Positions 5,426 to 36,160 of a DNA stretch of 64,000 bases are shown here, in pieces. Made by a program: the position numbers and the translations under genes. The stretch comes from Hydractinia symbiolongicarpus (Eukaryota; Cnidaria; Hydrozoa; Anthoathecata; Hydractiniidae): positions 5,642,001 through 5,706,000 of the forward strand of contig NC_079879.1 in the NCBI RefSeq assembly GCF_029227915.1. Reading direction: 5' to 3'. The notes beneath the pieces were generated by a model. The model ran no database searches and was not told the origin of the DNA. It worked only from the letters and a program-made list of their open reading frames with translations. Each line of letters opens with the position of its first letter. The stretch's first letter is position 1.

Positions 5426-8023
5426 CTATTCGTTTATCGTCGAAGATTCAGGAGATTCAATAAAGGATCGATTGTTGTAAACTCTTGGTGTGCCTACAGT
5501 CTTGTAATCTAAACCTTCTAATGTACTGTCGAATGTCATCGTGTGGCGACGTTCACTCTGCGTACTTTCAGTTTGAAACCAAATGACCCATACCTTGTAT
5601 CCAAACATAACACTTAGAAGAAAGAAGTTCGTGGAGAAAATAAAAATAAATCTCACGAACGTCTTTGTAGTTGCGTCCTGTGCATACTGTGTGAGAAAAA
5701 TAATTAAAACCATGTTTACACTAGATACAAACACAGCATACATGATAAAGCTCCCTTCGTTAAATATATCCGGTAATTTTCGCGCTCGGAAGGCTTGAAA
5801 GCCACATATTAAGGACAACAGTATTAAGTAAATCACTGTGGCTGACAAATGCATGTCAAAGTCACATGTGATTTCTTTGCGTTTATTTGCGAAATCAAAA
5901 ATTTCTTTAACTACGATAGGTCGTTCTTGGTATAAAATAATCTGAATTAAAGAGAATGTTAAAGTTGCACATGCTACTATTCCAAATTCCATTGACGTTG
6001 TAACACGTGCGTGAGTTTTATTAATTCGAAATTTTGCGTTAAATATTCGTAGTAATAACTCCGCTTTGATGAGTATGATGGAGAATGTGATAACAAGTAG
6101 TAAACCATTTAAGTACAATTTTATTGCACATATTGCGTCTGTTATCTCCGCAAAGACAAGCAGAAGTGAGCAAAACAACAGTAACTGCATGACAATCTGG
6201 ATGATGGAGAACCTTGTGTTTCCAGACCGTATGATAACTCTATTTCTGTATTTTAAAAATGTAAACAATACAAAACAACTTGAAATCATGCCGAATACTG
6301 ATAGAGACAGCATAATCACTCCATTATTAGATGCTATTCTGTGGTTATAAAGTTCTAATTTTACGCATTTTTTGCCATTATCAGCCACACTGTTTTTCGG
6401 ACAGGAAGTACAATTTCCATGGCCGTGACCAATTTTTACTAAGCCTTTTTGACATTTTACACAGTCCCAACAACATGGTTTGCTTTTGTCGTACAGCGTA
6501 TAAAATCCCGGTTTGCATGTATCAGAACATTGTGATCTTGGTTTAACATGGGTTGCCCATACCACACGTTGTACATCGATTGTTAATCCTTTCTTCTGCG
6601 TCCATTCTGCTATTGGATGTAAAACAAAACTATTGTCTTTCCGTTGCATATTTTGTATTTTGTACACTGCTGTGGTGATATCTCCATTCTCATCAAAGGT
6701 CACCGTCTCTCCAAGCAATCCGGTAAAGGCTACTGGCTGGACATACTTTTCATTAAACAACTCTCGATTTGATAGAGAAGGTAAAGATGTGCAATTTTCG
6801 AATTCGCATTGATCTTTTATGAATTCTTCTAGCGCCACTATATATGCTACAATGGCGTTACGAGTGTTTCCTATTTTATCTCCTTTAAACTTCGATTTAA
6901 AATCTTTTAAAGTTACGTTTTCTGAATTCGTTGAATTAATTCCATGAATGTTAAAGAATATCTTCAGGTACGGATTTTCATCTGCTTCAGCGTAAGATAA
7001 GTTCCAAAAATAATTTTCAAACCCGTTGTCACTACCAGTGTATGGTGTAATGGCAAAAGCTCCGGTCAGAACATTTGGTTCGATCTCATCGCTCCATATT
7101 TTTCGACCGGTTACTCCTTCAGTCAAAATCCAAGTTTTTTTAAATAATTTTAAATTCGAAGCGTGATCAAAAAGCATTTTACTTGGGGTTGATAATGCAA
7201 ACAAAACAATCACTTCGGCTGCCGTAGAACTATCCAGTAAGGTTTTAACAACCTTTTTAATTTCAACGTCGCTATACGGGACACCAAAGAATATTTGCAC
7301 GCCAACACAGATGTTGTGTTTTTTAAAAAGCTCAAGAAGTTTATCTGTACCGTCTCGTCCGTAAGAATTATCAGAAGCTACGATAGATATATATGTCCAG
7401 TTAAAATGTAAAATTAGATCGATTATGACTTGCACTTGAAAGGTATCACTTGGTATAGTTCTCATGAAGTTAGGATAGTCAATTTTATCGCTAAGAGTTG
7501 GGCTTGTTGAACCATAGCTAATAATCTGCAACTTTTCATTAGACAAAAAGTTGCTAGTTTTTCTCGAAACTGATGATGACGCCGGTCCCACTATACCAAG
7601 ATGGCGGCTTCCGTACGATTCTGATTGGCAGTAGCACGTACCTTCTTTATTTGAACGCATGTCAATTTCTGATGTTGTGTTTTTTTGCCAGAAATAAAAC
7701 GAATCTCCGAGCAGCATATCTGTTATGATTTCAGTGGTAATATCTAGCTGCGCTTCCCCACACGTGTCGTAAAACACATAACCAATTTTATATGAGGAAT
7801 TTTTGTTTGCTAAGTTTAACGTATATTTTATAACTTCAGAGTATTGTAATCCGTTTGAATTATATCTGGAAGGGGCTGTGTTGTACATCGGGAACAAACC
7901 TGTCACGTAATAATCAGACTTCCCACTCCTAATTCTGCTGACGTAGTTACATTTTTCTACTCCTTCAACTTCCACTAATAAAGTTAGCGATAAGAAGCAA
8001 AGTGAGATCACAAATCCAACCAT
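5426..8023 (-). CDS. class C G-protein-coupled receptor, mGluR/CaSR-like, intronless
   Basis: 865 residues in one exon. Order: hydrophobic signal peptide 1-21; venus-flytrap ligand domain about 40-480; cysteine-rich linker 499-553 (QCSDTCKPGFY, CCWDCVKC, CTSCPKNS); seven TM segments about 566-816; short tail. The flytrap keeps the amino-acid-binding frame of metabotropic glutamate receptors: SSSVSR (150-154), ISYGSTSPTLSDK with Thr173, IPSD with Asp193 and SYG with Tyr221. The position equivalent to the acidic LTEG site is Glu302. Cys632 and Cys720 would form the TM3-ECL2 disulfide. FRARKLPDIFNE matches the class C third intracellular loop, but the usual NEAK continuation is NEGS and the TM7 FxPKxY motif is FGYKVW. 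The ligand is inferred to be an amino acid or related small molecule. It acts at the plasma membrane. Confidence 0.93.
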   Translation of the reverse strand: MVGFVISLCFLSLTLLVEVEGVEKCNYVSRIRSGKSDYYVTGLFPMYNTAPSRYNSNGLQYSEVIKYTLNLANKNSSYKIGYVFYDTCGEAQLDITTEIITDMLLGDSFYFWQKNTTSEIDMRSNKEGTCYCQSESYGSRHLGIVGPASSSVSRKTSNFLSNEKLQIISYGSTSPTLSDKIDYPNFMRTIPSDTFQVQVIIDLILHFNWTYISIVASDNSYGRDGTDKLLELFKKHNICVGVQIFFGVPYSDVEIKKVVKTLLDSSTAAEVIVLFALSTPSKMLFDHASNLKLFKKTWILTEGVTGRKIWSDEIEPNVLTGAFAITPYTGSDNGFENYFWNLSYAEADENPYLKIFFNIHGINSTNSENVTLKDFKSKFKGDKIGNTRNAIVAYIVALEEFIKDQCEFENCTSLPSLSNRELFNEKYVQPVAFTGLLGETVTFDENGDITTAVYKIQNMQRKDNSFVLHPIAEWTQKKGLTIDVQRVVWATHVKPRSQCSDTCKPGFYTLYDKSKPCCWDCVKCQKGLVKIGHGHGNCTSCPKNSVADNGKKCVKLELYNHRIASNNGVIMLSLSVFGMISSCFVLFTFLKYRNRVIIRSGNTRFSIIQIVMQLLLFCSLLLVFAEITDAICAIKLYLNGLLLVITFSIILIKAELLLRIFNAKFRINKTHARVTTSMEFGIVACATLTFSLIQIILYQERPIVVKEIFDFANKRKEITCDFDMHLSATVIYLILLSLICGFQAFRARKLPDIFNEGSFIMYAVFVSSVNMVLIIFLTQYAQDATTKTFVRFIFIFSTNFFLLSVMFGYKVWVIWFQTESTQSERRHTMTFDSTLEGLDYKTVGTPRVYNNRSFIESPESSTINE

Positions 8024-13269: not shown

Positions 13270-14467
13270 TATGCCGACTGTTCAAGAAATTCTTACTACG
13301 GATTTTTGTTCCAGAAATGTTCCAGAAAAAAACATCCCATTGTCAAAAAAAATTTGTGTTGGATGTATGAAAAAATGTTCGATGAAATATTTAGAGTTCA
13401 AACTTTATCCAACAATATCCAAAACGATTTTTTTTCTTCTTTTTTTATTTTGTAGAAAAACTTAAAGCCTCTCAAATACATCCAACATGCGACATCTTCG
13501 ATGTTGGATGAAATGTTGAATGTATTATTTGCCCCAACCTCTACGTAAGGTTTTTTTCACATGTACGTAAGTCAGTTACGTAACTCACTTAATTTTACTT
13601 GTTTTTTAGTGCTGCTATGTTTTTAACATGGCAGCACTCAACAAATATCTCGTTTTACATACTGTTTCTGTTGCGTTGAGATGAATACGTCACGATCTTC
13701 AAAAAAAGCAAGTGAAGCATATCTTGAAAAAAGATCATGGGTTGGATCTACAAATCTTGATAGAACTCGCAGTGTTGTCTTTGTCTTAACGTTTCTTTCT
13801 GCAACACAAAGCTCTTCCTCGTTATGCAAAGACAATTTTTTTATATCTTGCTTTCGTGTTAATTGAAGTTCTTAAATTGCAGACCTTTAAAAATAGAATC
13901 AGAGCACTCTTTTTCTTCTTTGTCATTTTTTGGCTTATGTGCAGTTTCCTACGAACAAAAGTTTTTGTTCGTAAGAAAATCTACCTAAGCACTTACTAAA
14001 CTCCGTAGAGGTTGATGTACATCCTGATAAAAATGTCACAGTACGTAAATATTTTACGTAACGTAAGAGAATAAATGAACACCAGTCATTCCGTACGTAC
14101 ATGTGAATGCGGCAGTATGAGTAGTATCACAATTAGCCAGAAACCCGTTGCTGAAGCGCCTAGTTAAACCCGCGTTTCGGTCGCCGTATGTATTGTTGTA
14201 TCGATAGTCAATCTGCAGATATAATGCGGATAATACATTCTGGTCAACCTATTATAAAACTAGCAACAATATTGACGATCATCATCTACCTGTAAGCAAA
14301 TTGATCTGTCGAATAATTTTAGATATTCATTTGGAAAGCACTCTATTGTTTTGAATAACTTCAAAGGAGTATAAAGAAGGGAAAAACTTGTATTATAAAT
14401 TTAATATCAAACATTCTGTGCTAATTCGTCGAAATATTCTATCTTAAAATGGATGATAAAACAGATA
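13270..14467. other. spacer rich in nested short inverted repeats
   Basis: TCCAACATT-type repeats occur at 13340-13530. A hairpin lies at 13608-13638 (AGTGCTGC..ATG against CAT.GCAGCACT). ACGAACAAAA/TTTTTGTTCGT forms another at 13951-13973. TACGTAA motifs recur at 13540-13580 and 14040-14070. These look like overlapping MITE remains. No gene was recognised. Confidence 0.45.
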
Positions 14468-14690
14468 CCTTAAGGGAACTTATTTTGGCGGGAACTAATT
14501 TTGGCGGACGAAGGAAATCTAAAAAAAATTTAATTTTGGCGGGAACTAATTTTGGCGGATCAACGAAATTTTTAATTTTGGCGGGAACTTATTTTGGCGG
14601 GTGGCGGTTTTTTTTAATTTTGGCGGGAACTTATTTTGGCGGGTCAGCGGATTTTTTAATTTTGGCGGGAACTAATTTTGGCGAGTGAAG
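14468..14690 (+). repeat. left subterminal repeat array (TTTTGGCGGGAACT)
   Basis: Five units of TTTTGGCGGGAACT followed by A/T-ATTTTGGCGG recur every 45-50 bases. They probably serve as transposase-binding sites. The same core also matches GGCGGGAA, the E2F-type site. Confidence 0.85.
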
Positions 14691-14781
14691 GATTTTTTCA
14701 AATTTCAACGAAAATTTTCTTTGGTAAAGATGTAGAAATAAGCATTACAAAGCAAAGAATTTTAAAACAAATACTAAAAAT

Positions 14782-15283
14782 CTACTCTTCTTCATCGTCT
14801 ATGATAATGTCAAATGCATTCCGACTAAAGTCTATGTCATCCTCGTCACGCGTGTACTCCTCTTTTTTTCTTCCGCACCACCATGAATCGCAACATATTT
14901 TCCGATATCAAATCTTTCTTTTTCTGACCAACGGTTGTATGATTTTTTGCCACTGGATTTAACATTTTCAGTCGCGTCTGTAACAGCTTCGTAGTCTAAC
15001 GAACCAAGGGATGATTCTTGCTGGAAGTCAGTTGGTTGTGGGCCTAAAATGAATAAAACGAACCACTATGTAATTGCGAATTTTGACCAAAAATTAAAAA
15101 TTTTCAAACAAAGAAAGAAACTTCTTCGCAGGTAGGTATAACAAAAAAAAACATCAAAGAGAAATACTTACTTTGTTCCCTAGAACTGTTTGAAGGTGTT
15201 TCGTCTGAAGTTTTTTCCTTTTCAGCGGCCCTTTGTTGAGCTTCTTTCTCTTGTAATTTAGCTAACTTCCTGATGTAAGACAT
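14782..15283 (-). pseudogene. DDE-type transposase gene reduced to N- and C-terminal ends
   Basis: Exon 1 (15283-15172) begins MSYIRKLAKLQEKEAQQRA and ends at a GTAAGT donor. Exon 2 starts at 15043 after TTTTAG and keeps phase: SPQPTDFQQESSLGSLDYEA, then YNRWSEKERFDIGKYVA, an HTH-like start resembling transposases I know from cnidarian and sponge genomes. After HGGAEE the frame breaks in a poly-A run near 14862-14880, and another frame continues RKKEEYTRDEDDIDFSR to an acidic C-terminus, DIIIDDEEE, stop at 14782. The whole catalytic core is missing. The deletion probably joined the two ends of a once larger gene. Family assignment is from memory and moderate. Confidence 0.6.
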
Positions 15284-15385
15284 TTTGAAAGCCGGGAGAT
15301 AAAAAAGGAAACGTAAGTTATCTGTATCCTGTATATTTACTCGAACATAAACATTCCATTCACTTGGCCTATATTTACACTAAAA

Positions 15386-15560
15386 ATCGAACAAAAACAT
15401 TCTTTTTTTCTTGGCTAAGGCCCGTTTAGACTACCCAATCGAACAAAAACATTCTTTTTTTCTTCGCTAAGGCCCGTTTAGACTAACCAATCGAACAAAA
15501 ACATTCTATTTAATTGGGAAAGTTCGGTCTACACTGACAAATAGAACAAAAACGTTCTAT
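15386..15560 (+). promoter_or_regulatory. tandem repeats in the divergent promoter region
   Basis: Four starts of TCGAACAAAAACATTCT-like sequence (near 15387, 15438, 15490, 15541) lie about 52 bases apart, with GGCTAAGGCCCGTTTAGACT between them. The array sits between the two divergent genes of the transposon, so a shared regulatory role is inferred. Confidence 0.6.
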
Positions 15561-15638
15561 TTTCATGCTAGGCAATTAAAAAATCGATCGATTGACATTT
15601 TTGTTTTTCATCAGAGCTAGAAAAGAAAAGACGTCCAT

Positions 15639-16289
15639 ATGGCTTACAACAAGACGTTCGAGTTTACAGCTGCTGTCAGAGGATTCCATTATTATAAAAC
15701 TTATTGGAAACCTGAGGAAAATCAATCACTGGACTGCTTTCATGAGAACAACAATGTTTTCGATAGATTTGCAATCAAAGTTTGTGAATTCGGAAATGAC
15801 AAACCAGTTGGCCATTTACCCAAAGAAATCTCAAGGGTTACAAAATTTCTTCTGGACAGAGGAGCGTCTATGAAATCCACGTTGACAAGTGTACACTATC
15901 GAAGATCACCTCTCGTTCAAGGAGGCTTGGAGATCCCCTGTAAAATAACTGTTACTTTACCAGGGACAGTAAACAATCTTTTGGTTCTTGCAAGATACCA
16001 ACAACTTGTAGAAGCCTTGTATACAGAGCCGAAAGAGGAATTGATTCTTGGTTCGTTCTTACATATTGCAGTTATTTTAGATGTCGTGGTTCCAACCGAA
16101 GAGAGACCAAAGCGTAAAAAAAATACAGCCAAAAGCCAAAGCAAAGAGACGAAAAAGCAAAAAGATATTCGAAACTTTTTTGGAAACACCTCAGCTGCAC
16201 CAGCCCCAAAAAGGCAAAAAGTTAACAACAAACCTAAAAAGTCGTCACCATCGTCAAGCAAGGACTTAGAAATCATAAATATTGATTAA
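15639..16289 (+). CDS. HIRAN-domain protein with PIP box and SIM-like tail, transposon-encoded
   Basis: 216 residues, intact. Residues 7-110 form a HIRAN domain (FTAAVRGFHYYKTYW, HENNNVFDRFAIKV, KPVGHLPKEISRVTKFLLD), the fold that in HLTF/Rad5 binds free 3' ends of single-stranded DNA at stalled forks. There is no helicase or nuclease domain. A basic segment follows (RPKRKK 157-161), then QKDIRNFF at 174-181, an exact match to the PCNA-interaction consensus QxxIxxFF. The protein ends in a Ser-rich stretch and DLEIINID (209-216), which fits a SUMO-interaction motif (hydrophobic I-I-N-I beside acids and serines). It lies head-to-head with the deleted transposase gene inside one TIR element. I infer an accessory DNA-end/replisome protein; the PIP and SIM calls are motif matches only. 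Confidence 0.85.
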   Translation: MAYNKTFEFTAAVRGFHYYKTYWKPEENQSLDCFHENNNVFDRFAIKVCEFGNDKPVGHLPKEISRVTKFLLDRGASMKSTLTSVHYRRSPLVQGGLEIPCKITVTLPGTVNNLLVLARYQQLVEALYTEPKEELILGSFLHIAVILDVVVPTEERPKRKKNTAKSQSKETKKQKDIRNFFGNTSAAPAPKRQKVNNKPKKSSPSSSKDLEIINID

Positions 16290-16394
16290 AAATTATCTTG
16301 TATTAGAGGTTTATTATGACATAATATTTCTAGCGCAAAGGTATATTTCTAAAAGATATAAAAAATTGAAAAAAAGTTGATTTTTGTCGATTTT

Positions 16395-16563
16395 TTAAGG
16401 GGAACTTATTTTGGCGGATCAACGAAATTTTTAATTTTGGCGGGAACTAATTTTGGCGGGTGAGTAAAATATTTAATTTTGGCGGGAACTAATTTTGGCG
16501 GATTTTGCCCCAATCCGCCAAATCCGCCAAAATTAGTTCCCGCCAAAATAAGTTCCCTTAAGG
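16395..16563 (+). repeat. right subterminal repeats and 29-bp terminal hairpin
   Basis: Two more direct TTTTGGCGGGAACT units are followed by an inverted one. Segments 16476-16504 and 16521-16549 are perfect reverse complements over 29 bases with a 16-base loop, so the right end can fold into a strong hairpin. Confidence 0.85.
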
Positions 16564-16761
16564 TATTGATTTCCTGTGAAAACAGATAAAGGAATTATTT
16601 AGTCTCGCTTTGATGATATTCAACTCAGCTGCGCCTTGTCGAATATCACAAGCTCGACTGAATAATTTTCCATATTCGAATCTACCTCATCTAATAGCAG
16701 CTGCAAAATATTTTTTGCTAATTTCGAATGTTGAAAATTCGAATTTTGCATTGAAAGCTAG

Positions 16762-16893
16762 GCGCAAACTGATCCAACATTTCATCCAACATGCCCAATT
16801 TTACATATTGAATGAAATTTGATCACGATCAAACTTTTCATCCAGCATTTATTGCTCATCCAACACGATTTTACTTGTTGGATCCGTTTGCGC
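16762..16893. mobile_element. 132-bp MITE, Harbinger-related
   Basis: The ends GCGCAAACTGATCCAAC and GTTGGATCCGTTTGCGC are inverted with one mismatch. The interior carries TCATCCAAC motifs shared with neighbouring repeats. Confidence 0.65.
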
Positions 16894-17149
16894 ACTCTTT
16901 CATTCAACATTCGAATATGATTACGTAATTATTAGTTTTCGAGCGTCTTTTCAGATTCGCATCATCGCAAATTTATTTTTCACTTTCAAAACATTCACAA
17001 CAGACTTTGAAAAACAAACATTTTTTTGCACGGAAAAACAAAATAGGAAGCGAAGACAAGCAAGCAGAATTCCAAGTCAAAAGCAACGCCGAAACATGTG
17101 TTTGAAACCAAAACTATTTTTGACCATTAGTTCTTTGATTATGCTTTGC

Positions 17150-17213
17150 TTTTTTGATGCTTTTCGTCATCAGAGTCAAATAGCTCTGAGAGCAATATCA
17201 GTAGCATCATGTC
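17150..17213 (-). pseudogene. second Harbinger transposase N-terminal fragment, inverted
   Basis: The minus strand reads MMLLILLSELFDSDDEKHQK, then stops. It is clearly the same sequence as 10738-10800 on the plus strand (TMLPILLSELIDSDNEK). This suggests two copies, or the two halves of an inverted element, flanking the 14.5-16.6 kb transposon. Confidence 0.6.
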
Positions 17214-17630
17214 AAAATCATGTTTAAAATTGAAAATTGAAATCAACTAGGGGAAAGACAAGGAGCTGGGTAAAATGAAGAAAAGGGATATTTTAGGAAT
17301 ATAATTTAAGAACTCAGGATGTTTCCTACTCTGCAGATTTGTTTACAAAATGTTCAATAAAAAACGTTCGATTGTCTTCGAAAATTCGAAAATTACAAAA
17401 CGCACTGAGAAAATTATGAAATGTTGGATGAAATTTAACTTTATCCAACATAAAAGTGTGTTGGATGAGGGAGAAAATGTGGGATAAGTTTAAACGATGT
17501 CCAGCTTTATCCAACCCGATTTTTTTCTTGTTTTTTTATTTTTTAAAAAATATAAGTCAACCCAAATGAATCCAACATTTCATCCAACATGTAAAATGTG
17601 GCACGTTGGATGCATTTGAACCCACCTTAA

Positions 17631-18060
17631 AGGCAGAGGCAAACCAGTCCAGCATTTCATCCAACACGCTTCTCCCATGTTAGGTAAGATTTTAGGTTTG
17701 TGGGGCAAAAAATATTTTTTGTCTTCCTTATTTTTCTTGTAACTGGCCTCTTTTCCTTCTTTTGAACTTTTCTTCGATATAACAACCTTCAACATTCCGT
17801 TAATAAATTCAAATGTTTTCGAACGACGTTTCGAACATTTAAACGTTCGAAATTCACAGAGTTTGTAGATGCTGGACATAACATACCACCAAACCTACCC
17901 AACATGAAAAATGACGTATTCCAAAGACTTTCTTTGATCTTGCCGAAATTGTTAAATAAAATGTTTTGACAGCGATCAAGCTTCATCCAACATCATCCAA
18001 CACAATTTTTTCCTTTTTTTAAAAAAATGCGCAAAAACCAACACTGGTTTGCCTCGGCCT
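17631..18060. mobile_element. 430-bp Harbinger-type MITE with TAA target duplication
   Basis: The left end AGGCAGAGGCAAACCAGT and right end ACTGGTTTGCCTCGGCCT are inverted with one mismatch. TAA is duplicated at 17628-17630 and 18061-18063, the TWA target of PIF/Harbinger elements. The interior minus strand retains KRRSKTFEF, like KRRSKPY at about 11010, so it derives from the local Harbinger family. Confidence 0.82.
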
Positions 18061-24959: not shown

Positions 24960-27900
24960 CTAAAGGCAATGAAGTAATGCTTCTGATGATAGGAGGCTTT
25001 TAACGGTAATAAGTAAGCTCTCCTCCAGGCTTGACTTAAAATTATTACTGTCACTGCAAGACACAGTAAAATTACAAAGTGAAGGAGCATAACCACGGTG
25101 TCCATTAAGCAAGCTCAGAAAGTGAAAAATAACCGTAAGAAAACGGATATAACGCGACATACCTGGACGTCTATCTTTCGGTACTCTCCTTCTTATCAAT
25201 TTCCATGCAAGAAAAATAAAAAAGAGGACCAAGGGTGGCCACATCAACACTTGCATCACATCATGCAGAATTTCGTCCATTGGATCGAAGGTATAGAGGC
25301 TTCGTTTACCATTGCTAAGTAAAGCTATCGCTGATAAATTCACCAACACAAACATGTCAAAATTATTGATGCGATTTTTTTTGTATGGCTTAAGGACTGA
25401 AAAGATAGCTAACACAAAAATGCAAATAACAGCCAATCGTGTCAGTTGGGCCTGATCTTTGGGAGATAATATGGAAACAGCAAGTAAAATACAACGACAT
25501 ACAAAATAGTAGGACGGAAAAAGCTGACTAATAAACGTATCCTTGAAGCAATAATTAAACAAGTCAAAAATTGGCTTGAAGTGTACGAATTTGCAGGAGA
25601 GTATTAAGTTTGCGAACATCAGTAATAACGGAAATCCAATCACAACAACAACAAGAAATACAATGGCAATTGATCCAATGTAAAGATGCTCATCTTTAAA
25701 AAACCTAACATCGCCATAAATGTACAATCGTGTGGAGTTTTCAGATGTATCTACAACACCTTTATGTAACAAGCTGAATGTAATCCGTGTAATGTCGCTA
25801 TATGCCCAGGTCATCACAAACACGAAGGCACGAAGACACTTTGTTTTATTGAAATAAAAATCTCTTTTGCAGGTTCCGATTAGGGTTATTACACCCAACC
25901 AAACTATCATTATAAACGGTATGATATAATTAAAAGCCATTTTTTGCATGTCGTTGAAGCCGTCCCAAACACATATTGATGAATCCTCTGACACGTGAAG
26001 TCCATCTAAGTTTATTATTCCACTAAAGAAACGCATGACAGGATCATATTTCTGCGTTGGTGTTCTCGTTAAATGGGCAACTTGGTAGAAAAAAAATATA
26101 ACGCTTATATAGTTGTCATAAATGTCAAAATTTGCTAACAACACAAATACAATGATAATGCCAAAAAATATTACCAAGGAGGGTACCAGCCAAATAATAA
26201 ACCACCATTTTGCTCTGCAATCTGCACATCTTTCTGATCCAAAGGTGACAGAGTAGTTTATTCTACATTTTCCACACAGAGTAGAATTTTGATCGCGACC
26301 GTTTTTACATTGGTTATATTTTTGATAAAGACATTCTACTTTATTGATAGAATTATTTGGTGGTTTGCAGTCATCATTACAATAACCCTGGGGACAATAT
26401 AATATTTTCTCCGCATCATGCTGTTGAGCCTCCTGATGAGGTTTCGCCCACATGTTATCAAACAAATATACATTTTCCCCGATACACTGGGAAATACCTC
26501 TCTCCAAATTTTGACTGCAAACACATTCTCTTTTGGAAAAGGAGTATCCAAATGGACAAGATAACAATTGAATATTCTTGATTGTTCGCGCTTGAGCTTT
26601 CCCGGAAGAACTATGAATTGTGACATTAAAAATCTGCCTTCGACTATTAGACAAAACAGTCAATTTGATTTCTTCATTAGTAACAACAAACCGTGTAAAA
26701 TCATTCCTAAGAGACATACCACTGGGTGACAACCTTATATCAACAGTTGCTAATACTGACTTCAGCGTTTCATCAATCACCTTCATTTTTGGTTTAAACA
26801 GTTTTCCAGGCCAAATGTTTTCCCAGTATTGATCGTATAGAATAATGTCTAAGGGGTCAGTAGCAATGGATTGATGCGATGTAAAATTAAAATGTCTCCA
26901 TGCTGTAAAAACAGCGGATGCATTTTTTTCATTATTGCGTAAACAATCTTGCAATGTTGTGGCATGTATTGCATTTCCGTCTTCTTTAGACGCTACGTTG
27001 TCAATAAAAGTTACGTTTCCATTGAATGTATCCGCAGATGTGTTTTTAAATAATAAGAAGCAGTTATAAAGATGTAGGTTTTGTTGGTACTTGAACTTTA
27101 TCTTTGGACCTGACTGCTTCATATAAATTGCACCTCCTTTGTTCGCTGTATTTCCTTGGAATAAAAGTTCCGTTAAATCTGTGAGATAAATTTTAGAATG
27201 CTCATACAAAGCTATAGCACCACCTGTGTCACCATTGTTGCTTACAAATGTAAATTTTCCATCTACAGTTAAGGTACTATAATCCAATACAAGAACTGTT
27301 TTATAATTGCGCAAGGCTTCATTGTTACCACCAACAGCGATCTTGCTTCTATATGAATATAAGACACCAACGGCAGTTTCATTCACAACAGCCTCTCTTG
27401 TTGGATAGTTGTTCTCCTTAAACTTTAAATTTATAAAAGAAGCAGCAGATTGCTCCAAATACATTGCTGCCCCTAACCGCGCTTGATTTACTGAAAAAAT
27501 GCATTCTGTGAAGGTTAAATCGACTGATTGCTTAAAGAAACCATCTGAAGATAAAACACGACCACGGTATTGACTAAACCCACCTCCAACCCTAGCATAA
27601 TTTGCCTGAAAATCAGTTTCCGTTAACTTTACAACATTATTGGAGAACAATTTATTATCATTATCATCAACAATTCTCATTCCTCCTCCAGATAAAGACG
27701 CATTGTTTTTAGCAAATAGGGTGCCTTCTGTAACATTAATTACGTTGTTATTCGAATATTTTCCAAAACTAACATATAAGCCAGCCCCCCATGAAGCCCT
27801 ATTTACTTCAAAAGTACCTGTTCTAATAGTGACAGAATTATTGTTGGCTGATCCCATAAAAAAGATGGACATGCCAGCTCCGCGACCAAAAGGTGTATAG

Positions 27901-28655
27901 TTCTCAGTATCAGCTGAATAGCTCTCTCCCACATTACGAACATAATAGCATTCATGAAAATCAATCATGTTATTTGACGCTTCTGCATGACTGCTAGATG
28001 TATATTCTAAATAAACTCCGCCTCCAGATGTATAACCATCATAAACTTTACCATCCGAAGTAACGAACGGAACAGGAGTGTTTGACTCGAAGTGTGATTT
28101 TTGAAACCTTATAGGTCCTCCGCAGTCGTACATTGTAACTGCATAACCCATACTTCCAATAATGTGTGTTTCAGAAAATAATATATTGTTTGACTGTTTA
28201 AAATGCAAAGCCGTTGATATATAAGGTATGTGATTGGTCCCGTCTGGTGGTGCAGATGTTGATGGAAATTTACCTCCGCATCCAGTAAATATTATATTGG
28301 TAATAGAAATAGAGGAGGAGTTTTCAAATGACAATCCAACAGAAGCATTCTCATGATTGCAGCAACAATTAAAGTTATTCCCAATCAAAATAAAGTTATG
28401 TACATTAAGTAATGGGATAGTTTGATATAAAGTTTGTGATTCAAGCAATTTTATACAAGTGCCATTTAAATTTTTTTCTGATAAAGCTGAAGTTAGATTG
28501 GGGCATATCATATGTCCTTTGTCTTGTTCGCACTGTACTGCACCAGCCTTGCTAGTGACAATGATGACACGAGTTGACGAGTTACATGACATCTTATCCA
28601 AGCAATGACATGTGTGAACGAATAGTATGAACAGCAATAACTTTGTCGCCAGCAT
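24960..28655 (-). CDS. giant beta-helix, Cys-rich, multi-TM surface protein (copy 1)
   Basis: 1231 residues as an open frame. Signal peptide 1-18. Residues about 90-600 carry repeated GG-A/G-hydrophobic turns (GRGAGM, WGAGLYV, SGGGMRI, VGGGF, TGGAIALYE, KGGAIYM), typical of a right-handed beta-helix like polymorphic-membrane-protein repeats. Residues 700-813 are Cys-rich, with GRDQNSTLCGKC and CADC. From 816 come seven to nine TM segments (WWFIIWLVPSLVIFF first, MWPPLVLFFIFL last). Many N-glycosylation sites. Function unknown; similar proteins are, as I recall, widespread in cnidarians and sponges. The last ~66 residues after KDRRPG may be intron read-through, because a GTATGT donor falls there. 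A paralogue lies at 32720-36160 on the same strand. Confidence 0.88.
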   Translation of the reverse strand: MLATKLLLFILFVHTCHCLDKMSCNSSTRVIIVTSKAGAVQCEQDKGHMICPNLTSALSEKNLNGTCIKLLESQTLYQTIPLLNVHNFILIGNNFNCCCNHENASVGLSFENSSSISITNIIFTGCGGKFPSTSAPPDGTNHIPYISTALHFKQSNNILFSETHIIGSMGYAVTMYDCGGPIRFQKSHFESNTPVPFVTSDGKVYDGYTSGGGVYLEYTSSSHAEASNNMIDFHECYYVRNVGESYSADTENYTPFGRGAGMSIFFMGSANNNSVTIRTGTFEVNRASWGAGLYVSFGKYSNNNVINVTEGTLFAKNNASLSGGGMRIVDDNDNKLFSNNVVKLTETDFQANYARVGGGFSQYRGRVLSSDGFFKQSVDLTFTECIFSVNQARLGAAMYLEQSAASFINLKFKENNYPTREAVVNETAVGVLYSYRSKIAVGGNNEALRNYKTVLVLDYSTLTVDGKFTFVSNNGDTGGAIALYEHSKIYLTDLTELLFQGNTANKGGAIYMKQSGPKIKFKYQQNLHLYNCFLLFKNTSADTFNGNVTFIDNVASKEDGNAIHATTLQDCLRNNEKNASAVFTAWRHFNFTSHQSIATDPLDIILYDQYWENIWPGKLFKPKMKVIDETLKSVLATVDIRLSPSGMSLRNDFTRFVVTNEEIKLTVLSNSRRQIFNVTIHSSSGKAQARTIKNIQLLSCPFGYSFSKRECVCSQNLERGISQCIGENVYLFDNMWAKPHQEAQQHDAEKILYCPQGYCNDDCKPPNNSINKVECLYQKYNQCKNGRDQNSTLCGKCRINYSVTFGSERCADCRAKWWFIIWLVPSLVIFFGIIIVFVLLANFDIYDNYISVIFFFYQVAHLTRTPTQKYDPVMRFFSGIINLDGLHVSEDSSICVWDGFNDMQKMAFNYIIPFIMIVWLGVITLIGTCKRDFYFNKTKCLRAFVFVMTWAYSDITRITFSLLHKGVVDTSENSTRLYIYGDVRFFKDEHLYIGSIAIVFLVVVVIGFPLLLMFANLILSCKFVHFKPIFDLFNYCFKDTFISQLFPSYYFVCRCILLAVSILSPKDQAQLTRLAVICIFVLAIFSVLKPYKKNRINNFDMFVLVNLSAIALLSNGKRSLYTFDPMDEILHDVMQVLMWPPLVLFFIFLAWKLIRRRVPKDRRPGMSRYIRFLTVIFHFLSLLNGHRGYAPSLCNFTVSCSDSNNFKSSLEESLLITVKSLLSSEALLHCL

Positions 28656-32719: not shown

Positions 32720-35700
32720 CTACTTACTTGACTTTAGACTCGAACACTTAATCTTCCTTTGTACCAAGCAAATTAAAAAACATACCAGCGGTGGCCACAT
32801 TAGGAACTGAATTAAATGATATAACAATTTATCACTTGGATCAAAAACACTTAACTTTCTTCTGCCGTTAGTTAGCACACCAATTGCAGCTAAATTGCAT
32901 AGCACAATCATGTCAAAATAATTCAATCGTTCTTCCTTGTACGGTTGCACTAATGAAAATATCAATAACACGTGAATACATATTACTGCAAGTACTAGTA
33001 ACTGCTTGTGATCAGTATCTGTCATTACGTATACTGCCAACATAACACAACGACAAACAAAATAATACGATGTGAACAACTGACAAACCAAAGTTTCTTT
33101 GAAAGGATAACTGAATGAATCATATATAGGTTTGAACTTAACACAGCAAGATGTCGATAAAAGTAATGATGAAAACATCAGCAATAATGGGAATCCAATG
33201 ACAACAATAACAAGAACAAGTATTGCAAATATTGCAACAGGATAATGATCACCGTTGAAAAATCGAGCTTCGCCATAAATATACAACCGTGTTGTATATT
33301 CATTGTCGAAACTATCTATATCTGCTTTATTTAACAAGTTAAAAGTGACTCTGGTAATATTCCCATAAGATAACATTGTTAAAAATGCTACAGCTCTAAA
33401 ACAGCGCACTCTGTTAAAGTAGAAATCTCTCTTGAAATTCCCAATTGCTACAACTATCACTAAAATCGTTATTCCAACAAAGGGATAGAAATAATTAAAA
33501 AGCATCTTGTACATGTCATTAAACCCATCGAAGAAGCAAATTCCTTTAAAGTTGTATATTTGAATAATATTTAAATTGATAATTCCGGAAATCGCTTTCA
33601 TAACTACATCATATTCTTGTGTTGGTGTTTTTAGCAAGTGAGCTACTTGATAGAAATATAATGTACTGTTTAGATAATTATCAAACAAATCGAAGTTTAG
33701 CCACAGCACAATAAACACAAATCCAGCAACAAAAATGGTTATTCCCAACAGAATAAAAAAAGCAATATACTGTTTGTTTGAGCAGTCTAGACAATTACTG
33801 GAACCAAATGCAACTGATGTTTTGCCTTTACAACGTCCACATAATATTGAATACTGATCACGTCCACTTCTGCACTGGTGACTTTTATTGTAGAGAGCGT
33901 CCATATCATCAAACAGAGTGTCTTTTTTACTACATTTTCTATCACAAAAATCAAATGGACATATTAAAGGTCTTTCAAGTCCAGCAGGACTCACCCAAAT
34001 ATGCCTAAGTACGTAGATACGGTCATGAATACATCCTGTTACCACTCGATCTGTGGATTTATAAGAATAGCAGACACATCTTTTAGTAGAATTTTTGAAG
34101 AAATAACCAAAGGGACATTTGGCAAGCTTAACATTTATTTTTATTGGAGGGGCTGTACCAGTTTGGGTACCAATGTTAATATTAAAATTTGGGATTTGTG
34201 CAATTGCTAAAATAGTTAATTCAATTTTTCCTATTTCCTTTGTAACAACAAACCGTTTGAAATCATTGGCTAATGATATTACACCTTCTGGTTCAATATC
34301 GATATCAACAATGCCGCTTACATAATTGTTTGTTTCATCTATCAGTTGGATTGTCGGTGTTATTTCTTTACCAGGCCAAACATTGTGCCACATTTCTTCA
34401 TTTAAATTCACAACAATTCTAACTGGGTCAGTTGATATAACCTGATCATCGTCAAAATTCATGTTTGGCCAATTTTTAATTCTGTGTATAGTATCATTAC
34501 TTTTTTCACTGGGACAGTAGGATATAGTAGTAGCAAATATGGCATTGCCATTCTCCTTTGCAGTGTTGTTTACAAATCGAACTGCCCCATTCAATTTAGT
34601 AGGTCTTGCAACATTGTTGATGAAGCAGTGATATTCTTGCAAAGAAGCTATTTCAGGTGATAGTAACCAAGGTCCAGATACAAATATGGCACCACCTGTT
34701 TTTGCAGTATTTTCACGATATACAAGTCTTGTTGATTCATAGAGAAATATCCTAGAATGCTGATACATTGCCATTGCTCCTCCATTTTCACCACTATTAG
34801 CAACAAAGGTTAATGTTCCGTTAACAATTAAAAAAGAATAGTCAAGTATAACGCCTGTGTAAAAATTGTTTGATATATTGTTTGTGCCACAAAATATAAT
34901 GTGACTTCTATATGCATACAAAGTACCAAGGGCCTGAAATGCTTTTTGAAAATACCTTCTATGAGTAGTATGGTGTGTCAAACTTACATTACAGAAAGAC
35001 ACCTCAGTACTGTCTATATAGCATGCTGATCCAAGTAGAGCCATATTTCCAGAAAAATTGCACGATACAAAAAATGATTCCGGGTTTTGTAGTACAGTAG
35101 AAGTAAATAATGCTCTATGAAACTGATAAAAAGCTCCTCCAATAATTGCACTGTTTTTAATAAAACTTGTTTTTATAAAACGAATAATGTTAAATTGTAA
35201 ACTTTCTCCCAGACTAACAACACGAACTGCACCACCGGAATAAACAGCATGATTTTTAGTGAAACTACAGTTCTTAATTATAAAGCTATTAAAACAAGAT
35301 GATTTTTCAAATGTTATGTGTAATGCAGCACCATATAATCCTTTGTTAGATAAAAATATTGTATTAAGAATTTTTATTTTATTGTTACTGCTCCCAACTA
35401 AGAAAGTAAATGTAATTCCAGCCCCTTGACCATTGGATGTGTCACCCCCTTCAGCATTCAATGAAAAATTGCATCTTTCAAATTTGATGATACTTGTTAA
35501 ATTTATGATTGTGTCTTTGTGTGATTTTTGCTCAATGTATACGCCTCCACCATGTTTGACACCCTTCTCAACAAAATAATTAATTTTACCACTATGCATT
35601 ACCTTGACTTCAAAGAAATTTAAAAACTTCCCACAATCATACAATGTAATGCCATAACCAAAACTATTAAGAATCTTTACACCAATAAAAGATATCTGAG

Positions 35701-36160
35701 TGGTTCTTTTAAAATGCAAAGCTGTTGATATATAAGGTATTTGATTGGTCTCTTCTGGTGATAAAGATGTTGATGGGAATATTCCTCCGCATCCAGTAAA
35801 TATTATATTGGTAATAGAAATAGAGGAGGAGTTTTCAAATGACAATCCAACAGAAGCATTCTCATGATTGCAGGAACAATTAAAGTTGTTTCCAATTAAA
35901 ACAAAGTTATGTACATTAAGTAATGGGATAGTTTGATTTAAAGTTTGTGATTCAAGTAAGTTTATACAAGTGCCATTTAAATTCTTTTGTAATAAGGCTG
36001 ATGTTAGATTGGGACATGTGATAGTTCTGTTTCCTTGGTTGCACTGTACTGCACCAGCCTCTACATTAATGACACGAGTTGACGAGTTACATGACACTTC
36101 ATCCAAGCAATCATAGATGTTAAAGAATGCTATGAACAGTAACACATTTGCTTCCAACAT
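32720..36160 (-). CDS. giant beta-helix, Cys-rich, multi-TM surface protein (copy 2)
   Basis: 1146 residues, same architecture as copy 1: signal peptide (MLEANVLLFIAFFNIYDCLD), beta-helix with GG-rich turns (GGGVYIE, YGAALHI, SGGAVRV, IGGAFYQ, NGGAMAMYQ, TGGAIFV), Cys-rich linker GRDQYSILCGRCKG and CLDC, then seven to nine TM segments (first near IAFFILLGITIFVAGFVFIV, last MWPPLVCFLICLV). The first ~150 residues are almost the same as copy 1 while the beta-helix differs widely; the TM part is intermediate. The stop at 32720 overlaps a strong GTAAGT donor, in the same phase as the donor in copy 1, so the true C-terminus probably comes from the 30972-31051 exon. Confidence 0.88.
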   Translation of the reverse strand: MLEANVLLFIAFFNIYDCLDEVSCNSSTRVINVEAGAVQCNQGNRTITCPNLTSALLQKNLNGTCINLLESQTLNQTIPLLNVHNFVLIGNNFNCSCNHENASVGLSFENSSSISITNIIFTGCGGIFPSTSLSPEETNQIPYISTALHFKRTTQISFIGVKILNSFGYGITLYDCGKFLNFFEVKVMHSGKINYFVEKGVKHGGGVYIEQKSHKDTIINLTSIIKFERCNFSLNAEGGDTSNGQGAGITFTFLVGSSNNKIKILNTIFLSNKGLYGAALHITFEKSSCFNSFIIKNCSFTKNHAVYSGGAVRVVSLGESLQFNIIRFIKTSFIKNSAIIGGAFYQFHRALFTSTVLQNPESFFVSCNFSGNMALLGSACYIDSTEVSFCNVSLTHHTTHRRYFQKAFQALGTLYAYRSHIIFCGTNNISNNFYTGVILDYSFLIVNGTLTFVANSGENGGAMAMYQHSRIFLYESTRLVYRENTAKTGGAIFVSGPWLLSPEIASLQEYHCFINNVARPTKLNGAVRFVNNTAKENGNAIFATTISYCPSEKSNDTIHRIKNWPNMNFDDDQVISTDPVRIVVNLNEEMWHNVWPGKEITPTIQLIDETNNYVSGIVDIDIEPEGVISLANDFKRFVVTKEIGKIELTILAIAQIPNFNINIGTQTGTAPPIKINVKLAKCPFGYFFKNSTKRCVCYSYKSTDRVVTGCIHDRIYVLRHIWVSPAGLERPLICPFDFCDRKCSKKDTLFDDMDALYNKSHQCRSGRDQYSILCGRCKGKTSVAFGSSNCLDCSNKQYIAFFILLGITIFVAGFVFIVLWLNFDLFDNYLNSTLYFYQVAHLLKTPTQEYDVVMKAISGIINLNIIQIYNFKGICFFDGFNDMYKMLFNYFYPFVGITILVIVVAIGNFKRDFYFNRVRCFRAVAFLTMLSYGNITRVTFNLLNKADIDSFDNEYTTRLYIYGEARFFNGDHYPVAIFAILVLVIVVIGFPLLLMFSSLLLSTSCCVKFKPIYDSFSYPFKETLVCQLFTSYYFVCRCVMLAVYVMTDTDHKQLLVLAVICIHVLLIFSLVQPYKEERLNYFDMIVLCNLAAIGVLTNGRRKLSVFDPSDKLLYHLIQFLMWPPLVCFLICLVQRKIKCSSLKSSK

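Follow-up and report, generated by a model that had tools for sequence, protein, structure and literature searches.

A transposon of Hydractinia symbiolongicarpus whose second protein is built like a sensor of 3′ ends and clamp

The stretch of 64,000 nucleotides analysed here (the window) carries a copy of a two-gene pogo-type DNA transposon (IS630-Tc1-mariner, ITm) whose intact half is a gene for a HIRAN protein. This protein has a HIRAN fold, is paired with the transposase and is constrained both in its domain and in a tail with a PIP-like and a SIM-like motif, and the family has been amplified recently. Such a build suggests that the element may use its second protein, made like a sensor of 3′ ends and clamp, to link the timing or the targets of its jumps to DNA replication; that this protein binds PCNA and SUMO and acts at forks or excision sites is what we infer from its anatomy. 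The transposon belongs to a known superfamily; the literature searched gave no earlier description of its conserved HIRAN partner.

The element and its copies

In the window the element occupies positions 14468-16563 (2096 bp). A perfect 44-nt inverted repeat (14465-14508 and 16523-16566) encloses the gene, in agreement with the first-pass annotation, which had placed it inside an element with terminal inverted repeats (TIRs). The outer limits were set at 14468 and 16563 because other copies show that the TA beside the repeat is the target duplication. Repeat search and a TIR census of 25 copies define a 40-nt left TIR, starting with CCTTAAGGGAACTTATTTTGGCGG, at 14468-14507 (+) and the right TIR at 16524-16563 (−). 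The target duplications lie at 14466-14467, with TA flanking the element at either end in 24 of 25 copies, and, by comparison of the flanks of the copies, at 16564-16565. A subterminal array with a 42-bp period and with TTTTGGCGGGAA in each unit was found by repeat and motif search at 14534-14684 (+), and an array of the same 42-bp units at 16393-16501 (+). The word TTTTGGCGGGAA, which we take to be E2F-site-like, occurs eight times in the 64 kb, always within the element (14483-14684 and 16435-16548); GGCGGGAA is expected 0.27 times in the window. Other families have TTTTCGCG-type units within their TIRs instead of TTTTGGCGGGAA. Since the E2F-like arrays are located downstream of the 3′ end of each gene, a role as promoters is not favoured. 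Another dispersed repeat, TCATCCAACA, is present ten times on both strands (0.19 expected) and clusters around the insertion (11102, 13502 and 16782-18002).

The transposase gene of the window copy is broken and runs from 15283 to 14782 on the minus strand, as derived from a splice model and a match to P0121, a DDE_1 protein of Hydractinia symbiolongicarpus. It comprises exon 1 (15283-15172), an intron (15171-15044), the start of exon 2 (from 15043), an internal deletion junction near 14868-14873, located by comparison with a full-length element, and a C-terminal piece, recognised by its match to P0121, with the stop at 14782. The N- and C-terminal pieces match P0121 with an E-value of 1.7e-65 and 100% identity over the aligned part. 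The window copy is thus a deletion derivative in which roughly the element positions 402-1744 are gone, and the transposase is therefore broken and out of frame. In the full element the two genes stand head to head with 355 bp between them, and the transposase (LOC130640840, Hydractinia symbiolongicarpus), a DDE_1 protein of 570 aa encoded with one intron, differs from P0121 by one residue. This partner of the HIRAN gene had been missed in the earlier annotation. The intergenic region of the divergent genes (15284-15638), presumably a two-way promoter, contains, by repeat search, direct repeats of about 52 bp at 15354-15559.

The probable placement as pogo-type rests on PF03184 (DDE_1), which matches P0121 with an E-value of 3.3e-10, together with the TA target duplication and the TIRs; HTH_Tnp_Tc5 reaches an E-value of 0.035, below the cut-off, and the catalytic residues D370 to D406 are read by eye as DD35D. 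A TTAA target site of the piggyBac or Kolobok kind, to which CCTTAAGG at the ends had pointed, was rejected, as the flanks of the copies agree only as TA (24/25). To our knowledge, pogo-type transposons are usually regarded as single-gene elements. The element shares the DDE_1 transposase, the TA target duplication and the TIRs with the pogo superfamily (Tigger, Passer, pogoR) as covered by two surveys (PMC7386202, PMC7325037), but differs from what is described there by a second, head-to-head HIRAN gene.

A TIR census of the whole genome (480.9 Mb, 76 contigs; 3 mismatches allowed) yielded 50 ends, that is, a family of 25 copies, and the backwards control over the same genome found no ends. 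Perfect 40-nt TIRs are present at 49 of the 50 ends, and TA/TA flanks in 24 copies, the exception (L012) having an altered right end. Eighteen copies are 3477 bp long and one 3468 bp; the remaining six are derivatives shortened by deletion to 2698, 2096 (the window copy), 2034, 1268, 1102 and 195 bp. Thirteen of the 18 full copies share one and the same sequence throughout; the five others depart from it by 1, 1, 1, 3 and 9 bases. The family was amplified recently and looks recently active. The transposase is damaged or lost in all six derivatives, and the HIRAN gene is intact in three, 5′-truncated in two and absent in one. Derivatives without an intact HIRAN gene (3/6) have nevertheless moved or arisen, and the gene is therefore not needed in cis. 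A selective retention of HIRAN in derivatives has no clear support: the impression came from loci fetched via HIRAN, the HIRAN-independent census gives three intact genes among the small number of six, and the transposase is the longer deletion target.

Elsewhere in the window, two related long open reading frames (ORFs) on the minus strand (24960-28655 and 32720-36160; 1231 and 1146 aa) resemble, by eye, tandem duplicates coding for a large membrane protein whose extracellular part is rich in repeats. An ORF of 865 aa at 5426-8023 (−) looks, again by eye, like a class C receptor (metabotropic glutamate type).

The HIRAN protein and the motifs of its tail

The HIRAN accessory gene is an intact ORF of 216 aa at 15639-16289 (+), as had been claimed, and it was identified by the ORF together with profile and fold matches. 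The profile search, in which the lack of a significant match had been named by the first-pass annotation as a refutation of its claim, gave a significant hit to Pfam PF08797 (E 7.8e-8; score 32.5 bits, cut-off 24.7). Profile and fold agree on the membership. The domain had been sketched as residues 7-110; the assignment stands and its limits have shifted, the curated match covering aa 8-86 (15660-15896, +) and the structural match extending beyond the end of the profile to about aa 138. Y18 and F41 of the element protein align with Y72 and Y93 of the HLTF HIRAN domain (PMC4666394); further pocket residues are presumptive assignments. The protein consists of binding modules and contains no enzymatic domain.

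Behind the domain, the tail of the window protein (P0001) has the sequence anatomy of a PIP-like motif followed by a SIM-like C-terminal end, and it is disordered by prediction; the predicted structure is unreliable over the tail, with pLDDT values mostly below 60, and a comparison of the tail peptide with the PDB by sequence found no relative. A motif scan confirmed QKDIRNFF at aa 174-181 (16158-16181, +), which has the canonical form Qxx[ILMV]xx[FY][FY], and DLEIINID was found as described at the C-terminus (aa 209-216; 16263-16286, +), where homologs and families were compared.

Among 826 matches 120 homologs were listed, of which 83 have a recognisable tail and 37, lacking a recognisable tail of 30 aa, were left out. 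DI[RQ].[FYM][FL] occurs in 60 of the 83 tails (mean 0.0, maximum 1 in 200 composition-preserving shuffles), the strict hhxh[DE] stands at the C-terminus of 37, where the shuffles gave 0.2 on average and 2 at most, and 18 carry the canonical Q-form PIP, counts which are not independent because the homologs are related. After thinning to less than 70% identity, 35 non-redundant listed homologs were left: DIRx[FYM][FL] is present in 28 and missing in seven, the strict C-terminal hhxh[DE] is found in 18 and the canonical Q form in five. The Q of the PIP box, missing in 30 of the 35, is thus not its conserved part. The “consensus” QxxIxxFF box of the first-pass annotation consequently had to be given up as the defining form, since only 5/35 carry it and what is conserved is DIRx[FYM][FL] (28/35); DIRxFF is the constant part of the motif.

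The eight families of the genome give a similar picture. DIR is present in all eight and is followed by xFF in four, xMF in three and xML in one, which means that aromatic positions of the motif are replaced (MF or ML) in four of the eight; the hydrophobic-acidic C-terminal end is kept in seven, and in one the SIM-like end is gone. The DIR codons vary among the families (GAT/GAC; ATT/ATC/ATA; CGA/CGG/AGG/AGA), and differences between families amount to 0.50-0.81 at fourfold sites and 0.21-0.41 at second positions. A codon model gave an omega between families of 0.058 for the whole protein, 0.044 for the domain and 0.075 for the tail, values informative in direction only because synonymous sites are saturated. 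Residues kept despite synonymous codon change, together with the low omega, place the HIRAN domain and the tail motifs under purifying selection. Free variation of PIP and SIM residues, which had been set as a refutation, is accordingly not what was found, and the proposed dN/dS check of HIRAN, PIP and SIM indicates constraint (0.058), with the saturation of sites leaving only its direction to count.

Pairing with the transposase in diverged families

HIRAN pairs with the transposase across diverged families. Five further families of the same genome (L029-L033) have HIRAN proteins with 44-55% identity, TIRs starting with TACCTTAA or TACTTTAA and TA ends in all five; the divergent transposase is largely kept in three of them, reduced to a short piece in one and not detected at threshold in one. 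Of the transposase rows, counted at exon level, 63 have an identity of 43% or more; of these, at least 55 have a HIRAN gene within 3.5 kb and at least 54 have it in divergent orientation, both being lower bounds because 150 of 784 HIRAN candidates were scored. The same limit caused the seeming absence of HIRAN from a group of transposases with 35-40% identity (a match near 1 of 15 rows). Reading of 10 of the 13 underlying loci gave a diverged HIRAN gene in nine, head to head each time, and the supposed absence was dropped. A further HIRAN type with a 192-aa frame comprises at least 22 rows (genome family search, 150 of 251 candidates scored, 91 matches). In the sole locus of this type that was read (L072/L073, G000:C2:22975000-22980000), TIRs with TA ends enclose the HIRAN gene (E 2.5e-8) and, head to head with it, a Tigger-like transposase; this transposase is frame-broken in the copy read and has a clear Tc5 HTH (E 1.7e-12). 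The identities of transposase and HIRAN protein co-vary over nine systems (r 0.92, Mantel p 2e-4) and also within seven close ones (r 0.61, p 0.007).

The HIRAN proteins of L056 (4661-5428), L057, L058 and L061 show, by eye, a Cys-rich, B-box-like stretch N-terminal of the HIRAN domain. The top HIRAN match among the matches listed (G000:C3:13870189-13870413; 80.9 bits, 38.1 for the next) may be a host HLTF-like gene.

These data bear on the idea that a host gene was captured once and is incidental and functionless in the element. The loss of HIRAN from derivatives (2/6 5′-truncated, 1/6 absent) would suit it, but it is at odds with purifying selection, with co-divergence and with the divergent pairing; as this pairing recurs, the idea is largely refuted and we regard it as most improbable. 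Another reading makes the protein an antagonist of the host, competing with HLTF, ZRANB3 or Srs2-like factors at PCNA and so weakening a defence or repair that limits transposition. Binding modules devoid of an enzymatic domain agree with this. However, that head-to-head pairing recurs points to a protein acting directly with the transposase, although an antagonist could be paired too, and on the whole this reading appears quite unlikely.

A scan of window-type transposases (P0121, P0122, L064, L065) found no canonical PIP, only loose matches in the catalytic half. In three families without the PIP-like motif on HIRAN a PIP-like end is located on the transposase instead. In the L054 type, the HIRAN protein lacks DIRxFF and ends DVIEID, and the transposase starts with MAKVRDLRDFYKSS; in the L056 type, HIRAN has neither motif and the N-terminus of the transposase is MALFKYFKK; in the L072 type, HIRAN again has neither and the transposase ends with QSSIKDYFK, a canonical PIP. 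By shuffling, a loose PIP motif at a protein end is expected at 1.4-1.8% per case, to be read with the pattern having been picked after looking. The HIRAN tail of L062 ends NVIVIDD and is likewise without DIRxFF. Window-type transposases (P0121, L064, L065, L033) share a C-terminal [RT][NS]AFD followed by acidic residues, and the P0121 version, NAFDIIIDDEEE, is SIM-like.

It is possible, though we lean towards doubting it, that pogo-type elements of hydrozoans generally carry a two-protein module for reading forks, made up of a HIRAN reader of 3′ ends head to head with the transposase and one clamp-binding PIP motif per element. Selection would then favour an element with both activities, irrespective of which protein bears the motif, as a eukaryotic counterpart of replication-targeted transposition of the TnsE type. 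The putative sites of the motif would be HIRAN (DIRxFF), the transposase N-terminus (DLRDFY, ALFKYF) and the transposase C-terminus (QSSIKDYF). The tail with DIRxFF and hhxhD might instead bind the transposase of its own element or a host protein other than PCNA and SUMO, making the HIRAN protein a transpososome subunit or a repressor. Co-divergence of the two proteins fits a mutual contact, and the PIP lacks a conserved Q. The motif core, however, persists beside transposases that have diverged by half, as would be expected if the partner were a conserved host protein, and PIP-like ends occur on the transposase where HIRAN has none; we think this explanation improbable.

A possible coupling to replication

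The modules of the protein have counterparts among fork factors. The HIRAN domain brings HLTF to primer 3′-OH ends next to PCNA (PMC6265450). Unlike HLTF and Rad5, the element protein has neither helicase nor RING and is a stand-alone protein of 216 aa on a transposon. The ZRANB3 PIP peptide QHDIRSFF was crystallised with PCNA (PMC5481773), and its DIRSFF core is also found in several homologs of the element protein, in which, in contrast, the Q is mostly missing and which are putative binders; Q-less PIPs are reported among known PCNA binders (PMC10127746, PMC6881253). Srs2 uses a PIP-like motif and a C-terminal SIM as a tandem receptor for SUMO-PCNA (PMC10127746), and the element protein resembles it in having a PIP-like motif, a disordered linker and a SIM-like C-terminal end. 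It differs from Srs2 by the lack of a helicase, by DIRxFF in place of a Q-type atypical PIP and by a SUMO binding which is only putative.

A PCNA-binding-type motif in a pogo element also has precedents. The pogo transposase emerged as a PCNA binder from a screen, and a PIP of the pogo type has been reported in the Tigger and Lemi1 transposases, its relevance being called unclear (PMC5371812). The L072 type resembles them in carrying the motif on the transposase; the window family differs, with the motif in the DIRxFF form and on a separate HIRAN protein. The bacterial TnsE binds both recessed 3′ ends and the clamp, by which Tn7 is aimed at forks (PMC5371812), and the likeness is that of a DDE transposon accessory expected to couple 3′-end and sliding-clamp binding. 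It is an analogy: TnsE is a presumably unrelated protein, its clamp is the beta clamp, and target selection is demonstrated for TnsE alone. A literature search for HIRAN in connection with transposons or transposases, and for replication-linked accessory proteins of eukaryotic transposons, found no description among the titles listed, and neither the two pogo surveys (PMC7386202, PMC7325037) nor two Hydractinia genome papers use the word HIRAN in their main text; Repbase and subscription journals lay outside the search, so that the ORF may already be catalogued there without interpretation.

Taken with these parallels, we tentatively propose, as something slightly short of an even prospect, that cut-and-paste transposition by the transposase is combined with a trans-acting HIRAN partner which recruits or licenses it on replicating DNA via contacts to 3′-OH, PCNA and SUMO-PCNA. 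The transposase would cut and paste the element at TA. The HIRAN pocket of its partner would engage 3′-OH ends exposed on primers, on Okazaki fragments or at stalled forks, the DIRxFF motif would contact PCNA at such ends, and the C-terminal hhxhD would add a preference for SUMO-modified PCNA. The partner might thus act TnsE-like, presumably without kinship to TnsE, and copy number would rise by jumps from replicated to unreplicated DNA or because the sister serves as template to fill the donor gap. Weighing against the proposal are the Q missing in most homologs, the aromatic positions replaced in four of the eight families, the seven of 35 homologs without the pattern, the HIRAN proteins of the L056 and L072 types with neither motif, the lack of a PDB relative for the tail peptide by sequence, and the derivatives that moved or arose without an intact HIRAN gene.

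The same HIRAN and PIP-like/SIM-like anatomy would also suit a protein that manages the donor site, binding the 3′-OH ends left by excision and steering their repair through PCNA and SUMO contacts, for example towards sister-templated refilling, by which the donor copy would be regained, or so as to hold back recombination in the manner of Srs2. Recruitment of Srs2 by SUMO-PCNA restrains recombination (PMC10127746), and the many identical copies are consistent with an efficient gain of copies. The evidence here does not set such a manager apart from target selection, and we judge it rather unlikely.

Should replication coupling hold, a eukaryotic cut-and-paste element would have a concrete, testable route to it and so to multiplication. 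As the family looks recently active, 13 of the 18 full copies (3477 bp) having the same sequence, the idea is directly testable. The element protein would also be a natural, stand-alone HIRAN-PIP-SIM protein in which the reading of 3′ ends and modified PCNA by fork factors may be studied.
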